DNA from: Gammaproteobacteria bacterium
GTDB taxonomy: Bacteria > Pseudomonadota > Gammaproteobacteria > Steroidobacterales > Rariloculaceae
DNA: 37,257 nucleotides
NCBI GenBank assembly: GCA_029243585.1
Contig: JAQWRR010000108.1
Location: 1-37,257, forward strand
Direction: 5' to 3'
Below the pieces are notes generated by a model. The model searched no databases and was not told where the DNA came from. It saw nothing but the letters and a program-made list of their open reading frames with translations. This document shows positions 11,280-17,110 of the stretch, piece after piece; within the stretch, counting starts at the first letter, position 1, and each line of letters opens with the position of its first letter. The position numbers were made by a program, and so were the translations under genes.

Positions 11280-12236
11280 ATGGGACAAGATGAGTTTCAA
11301 GTCATTTCGAAGTATTTTCAGCGATCAACTGAGGATTCTGCTGTTTTATTGGGAATAGGGGATGATGCAGCAGTTGTGGAAGTGGCCGGTCCGATGGTTG
11401 TTACAACCGACACCATGGTATCAGGCGTACATTTTCCTAGTGAAACATCTGGTGACGTTGTTGGTTATCGGGTGCTTGCAGCTAATCTAAGTGATTTGGC
11501 TGCAATGGGAGCAGAGCCACGTTGGTGTACTCTCGCCTTGACTATGGAAAATGCTCAGGATGAGTGGTTAGCTAAATTCTCGAATGGTTTTTTTGATTTA
11601 GCATATGAATACGGCGTTAGCCTAATAGGGGGAGATTTAACGCGTGGACCACTGGTAGTGACCGCTCAGCTTTTTGGTGTTGGCAAAAAGGATCATCTTT
11701 TGACTCGCAGTGGCGGTAATGTAGATGATCAGATTTATGTGACTGGTTCTCTAGGTGATAGTGTTGCAGGGCTCTCATTAATTAATAAGGGCATAGCAGA
11801 TGCAAGCGATAGACATCAGGTTCTGAAAAATCGATTTCTACGACCAACTCCTCGAGTATCTGAAGGTATTGCAATGCGTGGTATTGCTAATGCCGCCATC
11901 GATATTTCAGATGGTCTACTAGCAGATCTTGGGCATATTTGTCAGGCGAGCGGCTGCGGAGCGGTAATTGATGTTGAGCGATTACCTTTATCAGAGGAAT
12001 TACGGACACTTTTTTCATTGGAAGAAGCCCAAAACTTTGCGATATGCGGGGGAGAAGACTATGAGTTATGTTTTACAGCATCCCCAGACGATGAGCCGGC
12101 TATTAAGAAGTGCTTAGAGCCCTCAGGAACTAAGGCCTATCCTATAGGCCAGCTTGTAAAACAGCCTGGTGTAGTATGTCATCGGTCCGGTAAGCCCTTT
12201 ATGCCAGCTTCAACCGGGTATTTGCATTTTACTTGA
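11280..12236 (+). CDS. thiL: Thiamine-monophosphate kinase
   Basis: GIGDDAAVVEV, TTDTMVSGVHF, DLAAMGAEPRW, DISDGLLADLGHI, GGEDYELCFT. Confidence 0.97.
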   Translation: MGQDEFQVISKYFQRSTEDSAVLLGIGDDAAVVEVAGPMVVTTDTMVSGVHFPSETSGDVVGYRVLAANLSDLAAMGAEPRWCTLALTMENAQDEWLAKFSNGFFDLAYEYGVSLIGGDLTRGPLVVTAQLFGVGKKDHLLTRSGGNVDDQIYVTGSLGDSVAGLSLINKGIADASDRHQVLKNRFLRPTPRVSEGIAMRGIANAAIDISDGLLADLGHICQASGCGAVIDVERLPLSEELRTLFSLEEAQNFAICGGEDYELCFTASPDDEPAIKKCLEPSGTKAYPIGQLVKQPGVVCHRSGKPFMPASTGYLHFT

Positions 12237-12277
12237 AGATAAGTAACTGAGCTTGGCGTTCAGATCCTATAACTGGT

Positions 12278-12526
12278 TTACTGTAATTCAGTATTCTCAA
12301 AAGATGCTGGTTCGGCATCAGCGGTCTTTTTTAATAGAATCTCTACCTTTTGTTCTGCTGCTTTTAGGGTGGCTTGGCACTCTCGAGTAAGCTTTACTCC
12401 CTGCTCAAAATGTTTAAGAGATTCTTCCAAAGATAGATCCCCGCTTTCGAGCTGTTCTACCAACTTTTCCAGTTTTTCTAGTGAGCTTTCAAGCACCCCG
12501 ACGCTTTTCTCTTTTGTGCTAGCCAT
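12278..12526 (-). CDS. xseB: Exodeoxyribonuclease VII small subunit
   Basis: LEKLEKLVEQLESGDLSLEESLKHFEQGVKLTRECQATLKAAEQKVEIL. Confidence 0.94.
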   Translation of the reverse strand: MASTKEKSVGVLESSLEKLEKLVEQLESGDLSLEESLKHFEQGVKLTRECQATLKAAEQKVEILLKKTADAEPASFENTELQ

Positions 12527-12609
12527 ATTAGTTTAGTTCTTAGTCTATGGAATGGCGTCACGGTACACAGAGCTGTTTTAGCCGTCAAACTAAAATAGTA
12601 AAATCCCGG

Positions 12610-12638
12610 TTGACAGATCTTGGATGGAGTATTACATT
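12610..12638 (+). promoter_or_regulatory. Putative sigma70 promoter of the rubrerythrin operon
   Basis: TTGACA (12610-12615), 17-bp spacer, TACATT (12633-12638). Confidence 0.6.
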
Positions 12639-12648
12639 ACCGATTCAA

Positions 12649-12675
12649 TTAGACTCAGTCTAAACTGATAGTTTA
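12649..12675. promoter_or_regulatory. Putative tandem operator: two overlapping inverted repeats
   Basis: Perfect 7-1-7 palindrome TTAGACT-C-AGTCTAA (12649-12663), overlapped by TAAACT-GAT-AGTTTA (12661-12675), just downstream of the predicted -10. Confidence 0.6.
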
Positions 12676-12731
12676 ATAGTTGATGTACTGATCCAGCCAA
12701 CCTAATAGAGCCCATTCATGAGGAGAACATG

Positions 12732-13151
12732 ATGAATCTGAAGGATAGCCAGACTGAACAGAATCTTAAGGATGCCTTTGCCGGAGAATCTCAGGCAAAT
12801 AGACGCTACCTATATTTTGCTTCAAAGGCTGATGTAGAAGGATATAACGATGTAGCTACGGTTTTCCGTTCTACTGCTGAGGGAGAAACAGGACATGCCC
12901 ATGGTCACCTAGAGTATCTTGAAGAAGTTGGTGATCCCGCCACCGGGCTTCCAATTGGAGCAACTGGGGATAATTTAAAGGCGGCGGTAGCAGGAGAGAC
13001 CCACGAGTACACCGATATGTATCCTGGTATGGCTAAAACCGCTCGAGATGAGGGTTTTGAAGAGATTGCTGATTGGTTTGAAACGTTAGCAAAAGCTGAA
13101 CGTTCTCATGCTAATCGCTTTCAGAAGGCTCTCGATAACCTCGACGACTGA
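12732..13151 (+). CDS. Rubrerythrin without rubredoxin domain (start 12729 or 12732)
   Basis: Diiron ligand motifs [33 protein letters not shown]; protein ends at LDNLDD with no CxxC rubredoxin module; AGGAG upstream at 12721-12725. Confidence 0.94.
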
Positions 13152-13157
13152 GTTATG

Positions 13158-13180
13158 GTGCCGCCTCTTTTAGGCGGCAC
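13158..13180 (+). other. Intercistronic stem-loop (attenuator or mRNA-processing/stability candidate)
   Basis: GTGCCGCC-TCTTTTA-GGCGGCAC: perfect 8-bp GC-rich stem, 7-nt loop, followed by TTACTTCT (imperfect U-tract). Confidence 0.7.
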
Positions 13181-13189
13181 TTACTTCTA

Positions 13190-14527
13190 GTGACTAATAA
13201 AAAAATAACCCATCGCGAGGGGAGTCTCGAGGCTCCTACTCGACATCCTATCTCTTGGAAAGACCCAGATTATTATGATGAGGGTTCCCTGGAAGGGGAA
13301 CTTGAGCGGGTGTTCGATATCTGTCATGGGTGTAGACGCTGCTTTAACCTATGCCATTCTTTTCCTACCCTATTTGATATGGTGGACGAGTCCGAAACTG
13401 GAGAGCTTGATTCAGTACGAAAGGAAGCTTACTGGGATGTGGTAGAGCATTGTTACCTATGTGATATGTGTTTTATGACCAAGTGTCCCTACGTTCCTCC
13501 GCATGAATGGGCCGTAGATTTTCCGCATCTGATGTTAAGGGCAAAGGCTAAAACATTTCATGATGGCAAGGCTAAACGCCGTGATAAGTTTTTGAGTTCA
13601 ACAGATAAAGTAGGCCGATTAGCCGGGATACCGGTAGTTGCCCAGACCATTAATGCGGTTAATAAATCTAAAGTTGGCCGGCAACTTTTAGAGCAAGTGG
13701 TTGGTATTGATTCAGAGGCTTGTGTTCCTGAGTATCACTCAAATTCAGCCCGTCGTCGCTTAAAGAAGATAGTAGGGCAGGAAAACCTATCAGAGAATAA
13801 AACCAATGCTAAGGCTCTAATATTTACCACTTGTTATGGTAATTGGAACCAACCTGGTTTGGTTGAGGACTTGAATGTGGTTTTTAAACATAACAATGTT
13901 ACAACCACTCTTATGAGGCAAGAGAGTTGTTGTGGTATGCCAAAACTTGAGCTTGGAGATTTAGAGGAGGTAGAACGTTTAAAGAATGAAAATATAGAAG
14001 AACTGTTTTCATGGGTTGAGAAGGGATGGGACTTGATAGCCCCAATTCCATCCTGTGTGTTGATGTTCAAAAAAGAGTTGCCGTTGCTTTTTCCTCAGGA
14101 TAAAAAAGTGGAGATCGTTGCTAAAGCTTTTTACGATCCTTTCGAGTACCTGATGCTCCAACACAAGGTAGGACGGCTCATGACCAGTTTTCCTAATAGC
14201 TTGGGAAAAATTAGTTATCAAGTTCCTTGCCATCTAAGAGTTCAAAATATTGGTTTGAAAACGCGCGATGTTCTTGAGTTAGTTCCAGGTGCTCAGGTAG
14301 AAGTTATTGAGCGATGTTCTGGCCATGATGGAACATATGCGGTGAAGAAAGAGTATGGAGAAATTGCCAGGAAACTAGCACGACCCGCCGTACGCCAAGT
14401 AAATAAAGAGGAAGCTGATCATTTCACAAGTGACTGTCCAATGGCGGCTGAGCATATTGCATCAGTATCGGATGAGGCAGTTGCAACAACCCCTATGCAG
14501 CTTTTACGCCAAGCATATGGGATTTAG
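13190..14527 (+). CDS. GlpC/HdrD-like (Fe-S)-binding oxidoreductase
   Basis: Two ferredoxin-type clusters (CHGCRRCFNLCHSFP; CYLCDMCFMTKCPYVPP) and two cysteine-rich domains (CCGMPKLELGD; CSGHDGTYAVKKE). Confidence 0.92.
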   Translation: MTNKKITHREGSLEAPTRHPISWKDPDYYDEGSLEGELERVFDICHGCRRCFNLCHSFPTLFDMVDESETGELDSVRKEAYWDVVEHCYLCDMCFMTKCPYVPPHEWAVDFPHLMLRAKAKTFHDGKAKRRDKFLSSTDKVGRLAGIPVVAQTINAVNKSKVGRQLLEQVVGIDSEACVPEYHSNSARRRLKKIVGQENLSENKTNAKALIFTTCYGNWNQPGLVEDLNVVFKHNNVTTTLMRQESCCGMPKLELGDLEEVERLKNENIEELFSWVEKGWDLIAPIPSCVLMFKKELPLLFPQDKKVEIVAKAFYDPFEYLMLQHKVGRLMTSFPNSLGKISYQVPCHLRVQNIGLKTRDVLELVPGAQVEVIERCSGHDGTYAVKKEYGEIARKLARPAVRQVNKEEADHFTSDCPMAAEHIASVSDEAVATTPMQLLRQAYGI

Positions 14528-14557
14528 CATAGACGGTATAAAACGGAGAAATTTATT

Positions 14558-15142
14558 GTGAGCAGTTTGCAGAGTTCAGATCTTATGGGGTTGGAGGAAT
14601 ACCACAAAGTTCGTGATGAGTTTCGAGCAAAAATTCTTGCGCACAAACGAAATAGGCATTTAGCTATTGGTCCTAATGCTACCTTATATTTTGAAGATTT
14701 ATTGACTATTCAGTATCAGGTCCAGGAAATGCTCAGAATAGAGCGGATATTTGAATCTGCGGCCATCGAAGAGGAGTTAGAAGCATATGTTCCTCTTATT
14801 CCTGATGGTTCTAATTTTAAAGCAACATTTATGGTTGAGTTTCCAGATCCGGAAGAGCGACATCGCGAGCTCGCGCGTCTGATTGGTATAGAGGATAAGG
14901 TTTATATTCAAGTCTCCGGTTATGATCGTGTGTATGCGATTGCTGATGAGGATCTTGAACGAGCTAATGACGAGAAAACATCAGCAGTTCATTTTCTCCG
15001 TTTTGAGATGAATTCTTCCATGGTTAAATCATTGAAAGACTCTGCCGAAATATCTATCGGTATTGATCATCCAAATTACTGTCATTCAGTTGAAACGCTT
15101 TCCATTGCAGTGCGTTCTGCCCTTTTAGCTGATCTCGATTAG
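14558..15142 (+). CDS. DUF3501 family protein (function unknown; GTG start)
   Basis: Start region YHKVRDEFRAKILAHKRNRHLAIGPNATLYFEDLLTIQYQVQEMLRIERIFE as recalled for DUF3501; position directly after the rubrerythrin/Fe-S gene pair. Confidence 0.82.
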   Translation: MSSLQSSDLMGLEEYHKVRDEFRAKILAHKRNRHLAIGPNATLYFEDLLTIQYQVQEMLRIERIFESAAIEEELEAYVPLIPDGSNFKATFMVEFPDPEERHRELARLIGIEDKVYIQVSGYDRVYAIADEDLERANDEKTSAVHFLRFEMNSSMVKSLKDSAEISIGIDHPNYCHSVETLSIAVRSALLADLD

Positions 15143-15223
15143 TCCAGCCAAAAGTTATTACTGTCGGTATGCTCTTGCCTATCAATACGCTTGTGGTTGT
15201 CTTGCAGGTTAGAATAGGATTTG

Positions 15224-17110
15224 ATGAGTAAGAATTATAGTGCTGCCGATATAGAAGTCTTAAGCGGACTGGATCCCGTGCGCCGTCGACCTGGTATGTA
15301 CACTGACACCGCTCGACCTAATCATCTAGTACATGAAGTTGTTGATAACAGCGTCGATGAGGCTATCGAAGGCTATGCAAAGCGAATTGACGTTAAGCTT
15401 TATCATGATGGTTCAATAGAGGTTGCTGACGATGGTCGTGGTATGCCTGTTGATATCCATCCAAAAGAGAAAATCCCAGGTGTAGAGTTAATCCTGACCA
15501 AGCTTCATGCGGGCGGTAAGTTTTCAAATAAGAGCTATCGCTTTTCTGGGGGCTTACATGGCGTAGGTGTTTCTGTTGTCAATGCCCTATCTAAGAACCT
15601 AGAAATATGGATTCGGCGTGAAAGCAAAGAATTCAATATGAGTTTCGTCAATGGAAAAAGAAGTGGAAAGCTCAATGTTATAGGTAAGGTAGGCAGAGGA
15701 AATACTGGTACAAGGTTGCGATTTTGGCCAGATACTCAGTACTTTGATAGCCCCAAAATCTCTGTTTCTAATCTTAAGCATGCGTTAAGGGCTAAGGCAG
15801 TTCTTTGTCCTGGACTGGACGTTCGGTTGGAGATTGAAAAACCTCAAGAAAAAATTCAATGGCAATATGGCGGTGGATTGGAAGAGTATCTGCAAGAAAC
15901 TCTTGAAGATGGTGTATGGCTTCCTGAAAAACCTTTTACTAATAGTCTTGAAACAAAGAGAGAGACCGTTGACTGGGGGCTTGTTTGGAGAACTGATCAA
16001 GTCACACCAATTAATGAAAGTTATGTAAATCTTATACCTACTCCACAGGGCGGTACGCATGTCAACGGGTTACGGTCTGGATTAACTGAAGCGCTGCGAG
16101 AGTTTTGTGACTTCAGGAATTTATTGCCTCGTGGAGTCAAGTTGGCGCCCGAGGATATCTGGGAGGGGGTAGCTTTTATTCTTTCAGTGAAGATGGAGGA
16201 TCCACAGTTTTCCGGTCAAACCAAGGAAAGATTGGGTTCGCGTGAGTGTGCAGGACTCGTTAGTAATATCGTAAAGGATTCGTTTTCTGTTTGGCTTAAT
16301 GAACATCCAGAAACTGGAGATGAGATAGCACAGCTTGCAATCAATAATGCCCAAGCGCGTCTAAAGGCATCAAAAAAAATCATTCGTAAGCGTGTGGTTT
16401 CTGGTCCTGCTTTACCGGGGAAGCTAGCTGATTGCACAAGTCAGGAGCCCGGTTTAACAGAATTATTTCTTGTGGAAGGAGATTCTGCTGGTGGATCGGC
16501 TAAGCAAGCAAGAGATAGAGAAACTCAGGCAGTTATGCCATTACGCGGCAAGATTTTGAATACGTGGGAGGTTGATTCTAGCGAGATACTTGCTTCACAG
16601 GAGGTTCATAGTATTAGCGTTGCCCTTGGTGTTGATCCGGGAGCGGAAAACCTTGAAGAGTTGCGTTATCACAAAGTCTGTATTTTAGCTGATGCAGATT
16701 CTGATGGACTTCATATTGCAGCACTTCTATGTGCGCTTTTCCTACGGCATTTTCGTAATCTTGTGATAGCAGGCTATGTTTTTGTCGCTATGCCACCTTT
16801 ATACCGTGTGGATGTCGGTAAAGAGGTTTTTTATGCATTGGATGATGCTGAGCGGGATATGATTCTTGCTCGAATTCAAGCTGAAAAAAAGACAGGTAAG
16901 GTAACTGTGACTCGGTTTAAAGGTCTTGGAGAAATGAACCCTGCCCAACTTCGGGAAACAACGATGGCTCGGGAAACTCGAAGGCTTGTGCAACTTACGC
17001 TCAATACTGATGATAAAGCAGATCAAATGTTGGATATGCTACTTGCTAAAAAACGAGCAACTGATCGTAAAGCATGGCTTCAGGAGAAGGGTAACCTGGC
17101 CGATATATAA
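15224..17110 (+). CDS. parE: DNA topoisomerase IV subunit B
   Basis: LSGLDPVRRRPGMYTDTARPNHLVHEVVDNSVDEAIEG, FSGGLHGVGVSVVNALS, LFLVEGDSAGGSAKQARDRETQAVMPLRGKILN; ParE-like length and paired with parC. Confidence 0.96.
   Translation: MSKNYSAADIEVLSGLDPVRRRPGMYTDTARPNHLVHEVVDNSVDEAIEGYAKRIDVKLYHDGSIEVADDGRGMPVDIHPKEKIPGVELILTKLHAGGKFSNKSYRFSGGLHGVGVSVVNALSKNLEIWIRRESKEFNMSFVNGKRSGKLNVIGKVGRGNTGTRLRFWPDTQYFDSPKISVSNLKHALRAKAVLCPGLDVRLEIEKPQEKIQWQYGGGLEEYLQETLEDGVWLPEKPFTNSLETKRETVDWGLVWRTDQVTPINESYVNLIPTPQGGTHVNGLRSGLTEALREFCDFRNLLPRGVKLAPEDIWEGVAFILSVKMEDPQFSGQTKERLGSRECAGLVSNIVKDSFSVWLNEHPETGDEIAQLAINNAQARLKASKKIIRKRVVSGPALPGKLADCTSQEPGLTELFLVEGDSAGGSAKQARDRETQAVMPLRGKILNTWEVDSSEILASQEVHSISVALGVDPGAENLEELRYHKVCILADADSDGLHIAALLCALFLRHFRNLVIAGYVFVAMPPLYRVDVGKEVFYALDDAERDMILARIQAEKKTGKVTVTRFKGLGEMNPAQLRETTMARETRRLVQLTLNTDDKADQMLDMLLAKKRATDRKAWLQEKGNLADI

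Follow-up and report, generated by a model that had tools for sequence, protein, structure and literature searches.

The 15-base palindrome at 12649-12663, just upstream of a rubrerythrin gene (rbr) in the 37,257-nucleotide stretch of gammaproteobacterial DNA that we analyzed (the window), very probably serves as operator for a dedicated repressor, an Irr-lineage member of the Fur superfamily that is encoded on another contig (C10) of the same genome and would control rbr-RFO-DUF3501. Sequence comparisons argue for this reading in several ways: i) the palindrome is conserved at orthologous promoters; ii) it lies at a position suited to repression; iii) it co-occurs with Irr homologs; iv) regulator gene and operon are syntenic in some genomes; and v) the regulator gene and katG have sites in common with rbr. 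Physical binding, repression, and the signal are the parts of this reading that we infer.

A conserved box at rubrerythrin promoters

The window operon has the composition of an aerobic-type rubrerythrin cluster, that is, a rubrerythrin with a ferritin-like domain and no rubredoxin domain, RFO, and a DUF3501 protein (Table 1). An additional in-frame ATG precedes rbr at 12729, GlpC models match the RFO protein below cut-off, and a GyrB/ParE-type gene lies downstream of the operon.

Table 1. Features of the rubrerythrin promoter, its operon and neighbor, and the candidate regulator gene
Feature	Position	Strand	Remarks
xseB (exonuclease VII small subunit)	12278-12526		divergent, upstream of rbr operon
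rbr promoter -35 hexamer TTGACA	12610-12615	+	kept ahead of box in most orthologous promoters
rbr promoter -10 hexamer TACATT	12633-12638	+	17 bp spacer from -35
Putative Irr/ICE-like operator ATTAGACTCAGTCTAAA	12648-12664	+	core palindrome 12649-12663; ortholog conservation and Irr-homolog co-occurrence
Second inverted repeat TAAACTGATAGTTTA	12661-12675	+	not conserved; probably no separate operator
rbr, aerobic-type rubrerythrin without rubredoxin domain	12732-13151	+	PF02915 over residues 11-133 of 139 aa
RFO gene, GlpC-like Fe-S oxidoreductase	13190-14527	+	PF02754; named RFO in PMC5114695
DUF3501 protein gene	14558-15142	+	PF12007
Irr-like gene	C10:13295-13702		135 aa; PF01475 69 bits, cut-off 23.1

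Exactly as the original prediction had it, TTAGACTCAGTCTAA (TTAGACT-C-AGTCTAA) is a perfect palindrome of 7-1-7 geometry, and the promoter proposed along with it, with its 17-bp spacing, is also there. The palindrome starts 11 nt past the -10 hexamer and, given a transcription start 6-8 nt past -10, the predicted operator would span about +3 to +20. Geometry alone is not significant: the count of perfect palindromes in the window is 3 for 7-1-7, compared with 2.6 (sd 1.5) in Markov-1 resampled sequence, and 16 for 6-3-6, compared with 9.7 (sd 3.3); it is because of conservation that we regard the palindrome as real. With a position weight matrix (PWM), the score is 27.3 bits for the window box and 7.7 bits for the next-best site in the window.

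We compared 58 relatives, from the window's genus up to its order, of which 42 have an rbr ortholog, and counted as a box any match to at least 13 of the 17 positions of a 17-mer consensus within 300 bp upstream of rbr. Loss of the palindrome upstream of orthologs had been named in the original prediction as the result that would speak against it; instead the box is present at 40 of the 42 promoters, mostly at 15/17 to 17/17, and in shuffled upstream regions 15/17 was attained in 0.2% and 16/17 in none. A zero-mismatch search of 58 genomes gave 46 strand-hits, most of them at rbr, and the reversed control pattern gave 0. Box positions T3, G5, A6, and T12 are invariant in all 40 promoters, and variation is mostly confined to positions 7 and 11, which are C/G in most promoters and A/T in some (the inner pair is A/T in G046, G057, and G160, and partly so in others). 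Relative to a TTGACA promoter, the usual start of the box is 8-14 nt past the -10, and in most remaining cases box and -10 overlap; both are repressing positions. The proposal of a Fur-superfamily-type operator placed to repress the rubrerythrin operon is thus supported by the retention of the box upstream of orthologs.

Sites of alphaproteobacterial Irr share the ICE consensus, with a TTAGAA-N3-TTCTAA core. The window box matches the outer TTAGA/TCTAA of this core, and the inner A/T is C/G; it is best read as an ICE (Irr box) variant, TTAGAC-N3-GTCTAA. The PerR box TTATAATNATTATAA agrees with the window box at only 5 of 7 letters per half-site, which is too few for a PerR box, so that of the Fur/PerR/Irr-like character originally ascribed to the element the Irr-like part stands and the PerR box does not.

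An Irr-like Fur paralog as candidate regulator

The regulator had been predicted to lie outside the window, and a search for PerR/Irr-like Fur paralogs had been suggested; both the prediction and the search bore fruit. The window's own genome, rated 77% complete, has two FUR-domain genes, a canonical Fur on C6 (L016, which scores 175.7 bits against a cut-off of 146 with the E. coli-type Fur model) and the paralog on C10. The best NCBIfam models for the latter are Irr (105.2 bits, cut-off 170) and IrrA (103.9 bits, cut-off 150), and because these scores fall below the curated cut-offs we file the protein in an Irr-like sister clade and not as Irr. In the tree, alphaproteobacterial Irr/IrrA has as its sister group, with moderate support (82/78), a clade made up of the C10 paralog and its orthologs from Gammaproteobacteria; Leptospira PerR comes next. 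Irr-like matches also include entries labelled Betaproteobacteria or Burkholderiales, and two genomes carry a second, more distant Irr-like paralog (G031:C23 and G044:C6, 31-35% identity) beside the main one.

The C10 protein has H34, N58, D82, H88, H90, and D101, with H88-H89-H90 as the HxH motif and N58 and D101 as the PerR/Irr-type Asn and Asp; the CxxC structural zinc site is missing in 30/30 orthologs. This combination is common to Irr and Leptospira PerR, not Fur. The regulatory site of B. subtilis PerR (His37, Asp85, His91, His93, Asp104) corresponds to H34, D82, H88, H90, and D101, all invariant in alignment A1, and Asn61 is likewise matched; the structural zinc Cys4 site of PerR is absent, with Cys96/99 of the B. 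subtilis protein aligning to N93/S96. Nor does the window genome's Irr-like protein contain a CP, as in the Bradyrhizobium-type (Cys-Pro) heme regulatory motif, which is also missing from many accepted Irr proteins (PMC3413700).

Co-occurrence and synteny of candidate regulator and box

Within the order, the Irr-like gene is found in 35 of the 42 genomes with rbr and 4 of the 16 without (p=6e-5); beyond it, among 16 genomes with rbr from other orders or classes, the box is present in 6 of the 8 with an Irr homolog and in none of the 8 without; and over all 58 rbr-bearing genomes box and Irr homolog co-occur with a Fisher p=3e-6, these genomes being related and the rows of such tests therefore not independent. 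Five rbr genomes have the box and no detected Irr-like gene; four of these are 77-88% complete, and the fifth, G037, is rated 100%.

Linkage points the same way. The surroundings of 80 named Irr-like genes, 774,709 bp in all, contain 17 PWM hits scoring 12 bits or more: 15 just upstream of the Irr-like gene, one elsewhere, and one at rbr, in a locus (L222) where the Irr-like gene and a boxed rbr operon stand tail-to-tail. In four genomes of other classes (G065, G073, G089, and G196) rbr-RFO-DUF3501 is directly preceded by a gene whose product exceeds the curated IrrA threshold of 150 bits, scoring 194-216; the top PWM site in each 5-kb stretch is the one at the rbr promoter, a weak one in G065 and G089. 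Autoregulation in the window's own genome was considered and rejected, as no upstream box above background could be found at its Irr-like gene.

Among 30 relatives, 6 (G008, G011, G015, G018, G026, and G033) have the box ahead of katG as well, and in the first three of these a second strong site adjoins it; with 6/30 only, a box at all katG promoters was rejected. Rubrerythrin and catalase-peroxidase as targets suggest a role in peroxide defence. A loose scan of the window's own genome, allowing 3 mismatches, gave 124 strand-hits, fewer than the 272 of the reversed control, and so defines no regulon.

Several further observations concern these sites and genes. Box-like sites lie upstream of DUF6152-protein genes in L002 (G000:C50:8566-8580) and L093 (G006:C104:7810-7825), the G006 protein being fused to an HbpS-like domain, and genes of this kind may be additional targets within the window's genus. 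In two genomes (L123, G008:C71; L125, G018:C21) the 3′ end of alaS holds another box-like site, possibly by coincidence, because a Leu-Asp-stop end (TTA GAC TNA) may account for part of it. No katG-like catalase-peroxidase was found in G000, G002, G003, and G006, smaller genomes of the window's genus, and such a gene is present in G004 and G005, larger congeners that lack rbr; rubrerythrin may stand in for KatG in this genus. In G027 (C49), a FUR-family gene of weak match (48 bits) is the same-strand neighbor of katG, an arrangement like that of furA-katG pairs. Finally, contigs titled as Rhodospirillales/Rhodospirillaceae (L147 and L148, from G013 and G015) group in the window's family beside contigs titled Gammaproteobacteria, and the titles look wrong.

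Proposed mechanism and alternative readings

An Irr-like dimer would bind the box at about +3 to +20 and block RNA polymerase at the strong TTGACA promoter, thereby holding the rubrerythrin-RFO-DUF3501 peroxide-reductase operon low; release of the Irr-like protein from the box would de-repress the operon. Since the PerR/Irr metal site and the HxH (a heme motif in Irr) are kept, release would be expected in response to peroxide acting at the PerR-type site, to heme/iron sufficiency as in Irr, or to both. We also suggest, tentatively and with more doubt than conviction, that the gammaproteobacterial Irr subfamily as a whole could be a narrow peroxide-defence regulator with its own box TTAGAC-N3-GTCTAA, acting on rbr-RFO-DUF3501, sometimes katG, and itself, and combining peroxide sensing and heme binding in one protein so as to join the PerR and Irr modes.

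The regulator might instead work as a PerR, a metal-loaded, heme-independent repressor that peroxide inactivates by oxidizing histidine, with the operator unchanged. This is a serious possibility, to which we give somewhat less than an even chance: the targets are rbr and katG, each of the five ligands of B. subtilis PerR, Asp104 among them, has its match, as does Asn61, and the nearest solved structure is a Leptospira PerR (5nl9) that likewise lacks the structural metal site. The same residues are present in alphaproteobacterial Irr (PMC8638967), however, so that sequence cannot decide the point; moreover, the tree groups the regulator, at moderate support, with Irr, and the box is ICE-like, not TTATAATNATTATAA.

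The original prediction had joined the palindrome to a second repeat, TAAACT-GAT-AGTTTA, with which it has three bases (TAA) in common. Both repeats exist, and a composite operator for two dimers could be imagined in the window and in the near-identical G002, where their centers are 12 bp apart, but we think it improbable: among the aligned rbr promoters the second repeat is present solely in these two genomes, degraded in the congener G003, and missing from G006 (same genus) and everywhere else. A single element made of both is accordingly not supported, a separate second operator is improbable given the same lack of conservation, and, being shared only with G002, the second repeat is probably fortuitous.

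Still less probable is a site for canonical Fur (L016), with rbr simply part of the Fur/iron regulon. The 7-1-7 geometry resembles that of Fur boxes, and the window's genome does have a Fur gene; yet the two rbr genes that lack the box belong to G012 (98% complete) and G032 (94%), both of which have Fur and neither an Irr-like gene. The box follows the Irr homolog instead, strong sites occur at the Irr-like gene itself, and the box sequence is not GATAAT-like. A role of the palindrome as a 5′-leader RNA hairpin, in stability or attenuation, is hardly credible: in most promoters it would fall within the first 20 nt of the transcript, and its arms could form a stem of 6 bp with a 3-nt loop, but its bases are fixed and not merely paired (T3, G5, A6, T12), those boxes that overlap a -10 are transcribed incompletely, the same box stands ahead of Irr-like and katG genes, and Rfam gave no match across 12200-15300.

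Relation to known Irr, PerR, and rubrerythrin systems

With the operator assigned, as we prefer, to an Irr-lineage repressor, parts of the picture are familiar: Fur-family (PerR) control of rubrerythrin is already known (PMC545781), as are rubrerythrin-domain and peroxidase targets of Irr in Alphaproteobacteria. Irr itself, with few exceptions, has been described only from Alphaproteobacteria (PMC7762939). In the literature that we searched (RegPrecise and two primary ICE papers lay outside its scope) we found neither the gammaproteobacterial Irr-like clade nor its box variant nor the link to rbr-RFO-DUF3501, and as far as that search goes all three are new. The lineage is widespread in uncultivated Gammaproteobacteria, with a testable putative operator and target set, and the rbr operon with its box may offer a simple readout for heme versus iron versus peroxide sensing by Irr-like proteins.

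Alphaproteobacterial Irr/IrrA resembles the candidate regulator in its Fur fold without CxxC, its HxH, and its PerR-type Asp and Asn, and in having a peroxidase (ccpA) and a ferritin-like protein among its targets. The Rhodobacter Irr site confirmed by EMSA, TTAGAAATATTCTAGA (PMC6956336), agrees with the ICE consensus, and further Rhodobacter sites are known at ccpA and at mbfA, where the mapped 5′ end falls inside the box; the irr mutant is more peroxide-resistant (PMC3413700). Window box and ICE box are palindromes of equal length with the same outer TTAGA...TCTAA, each at or just past the transcription start (for mbfA, PMC3413700). The differences are that the candidate regulator is a member of a sister clade in Gammaproteobacteria, below the cut-offs of the curated Irr models, that the inner letters of the box are C/G and not A/T, and that there are few sites per genome, mostly at rbr and sometimes at the regulator's own gene and katG.

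The Desulfovibrio perR-rbr system (PMC545781) likewise places a Fur-superfamily repressor over a rubrerythrin operon, but its regulator is PerR and not of the Irr lineage, its sites are of the kind of AATAGGAATCGTTCCTGTT, and its rubrerythrin belongs to another cluster type. Leptospira PerRA (5nl9) is the closest solved relative of the candidate regulator (phmmer 6.6e-18), also lacks the structural metal site, and has a site upstream of its own gene described as Irr-box-like (PMC8638967), but it falls outside the clade of Irr and gammaproteobacterial Irr-like proteins in the tree. Closest to the operon itself is the aerobic-type RBR-RFO-DUF3501 cluster of PMC5114695, which has the identical three genes in one cluster; the words PerR, Irr, and promoter are absent from the main text of that paper, and no regulator of such clusters was found named in the literature searched. 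To the description of that cluster our analysis adds a candidate regulator and a candidate operator.
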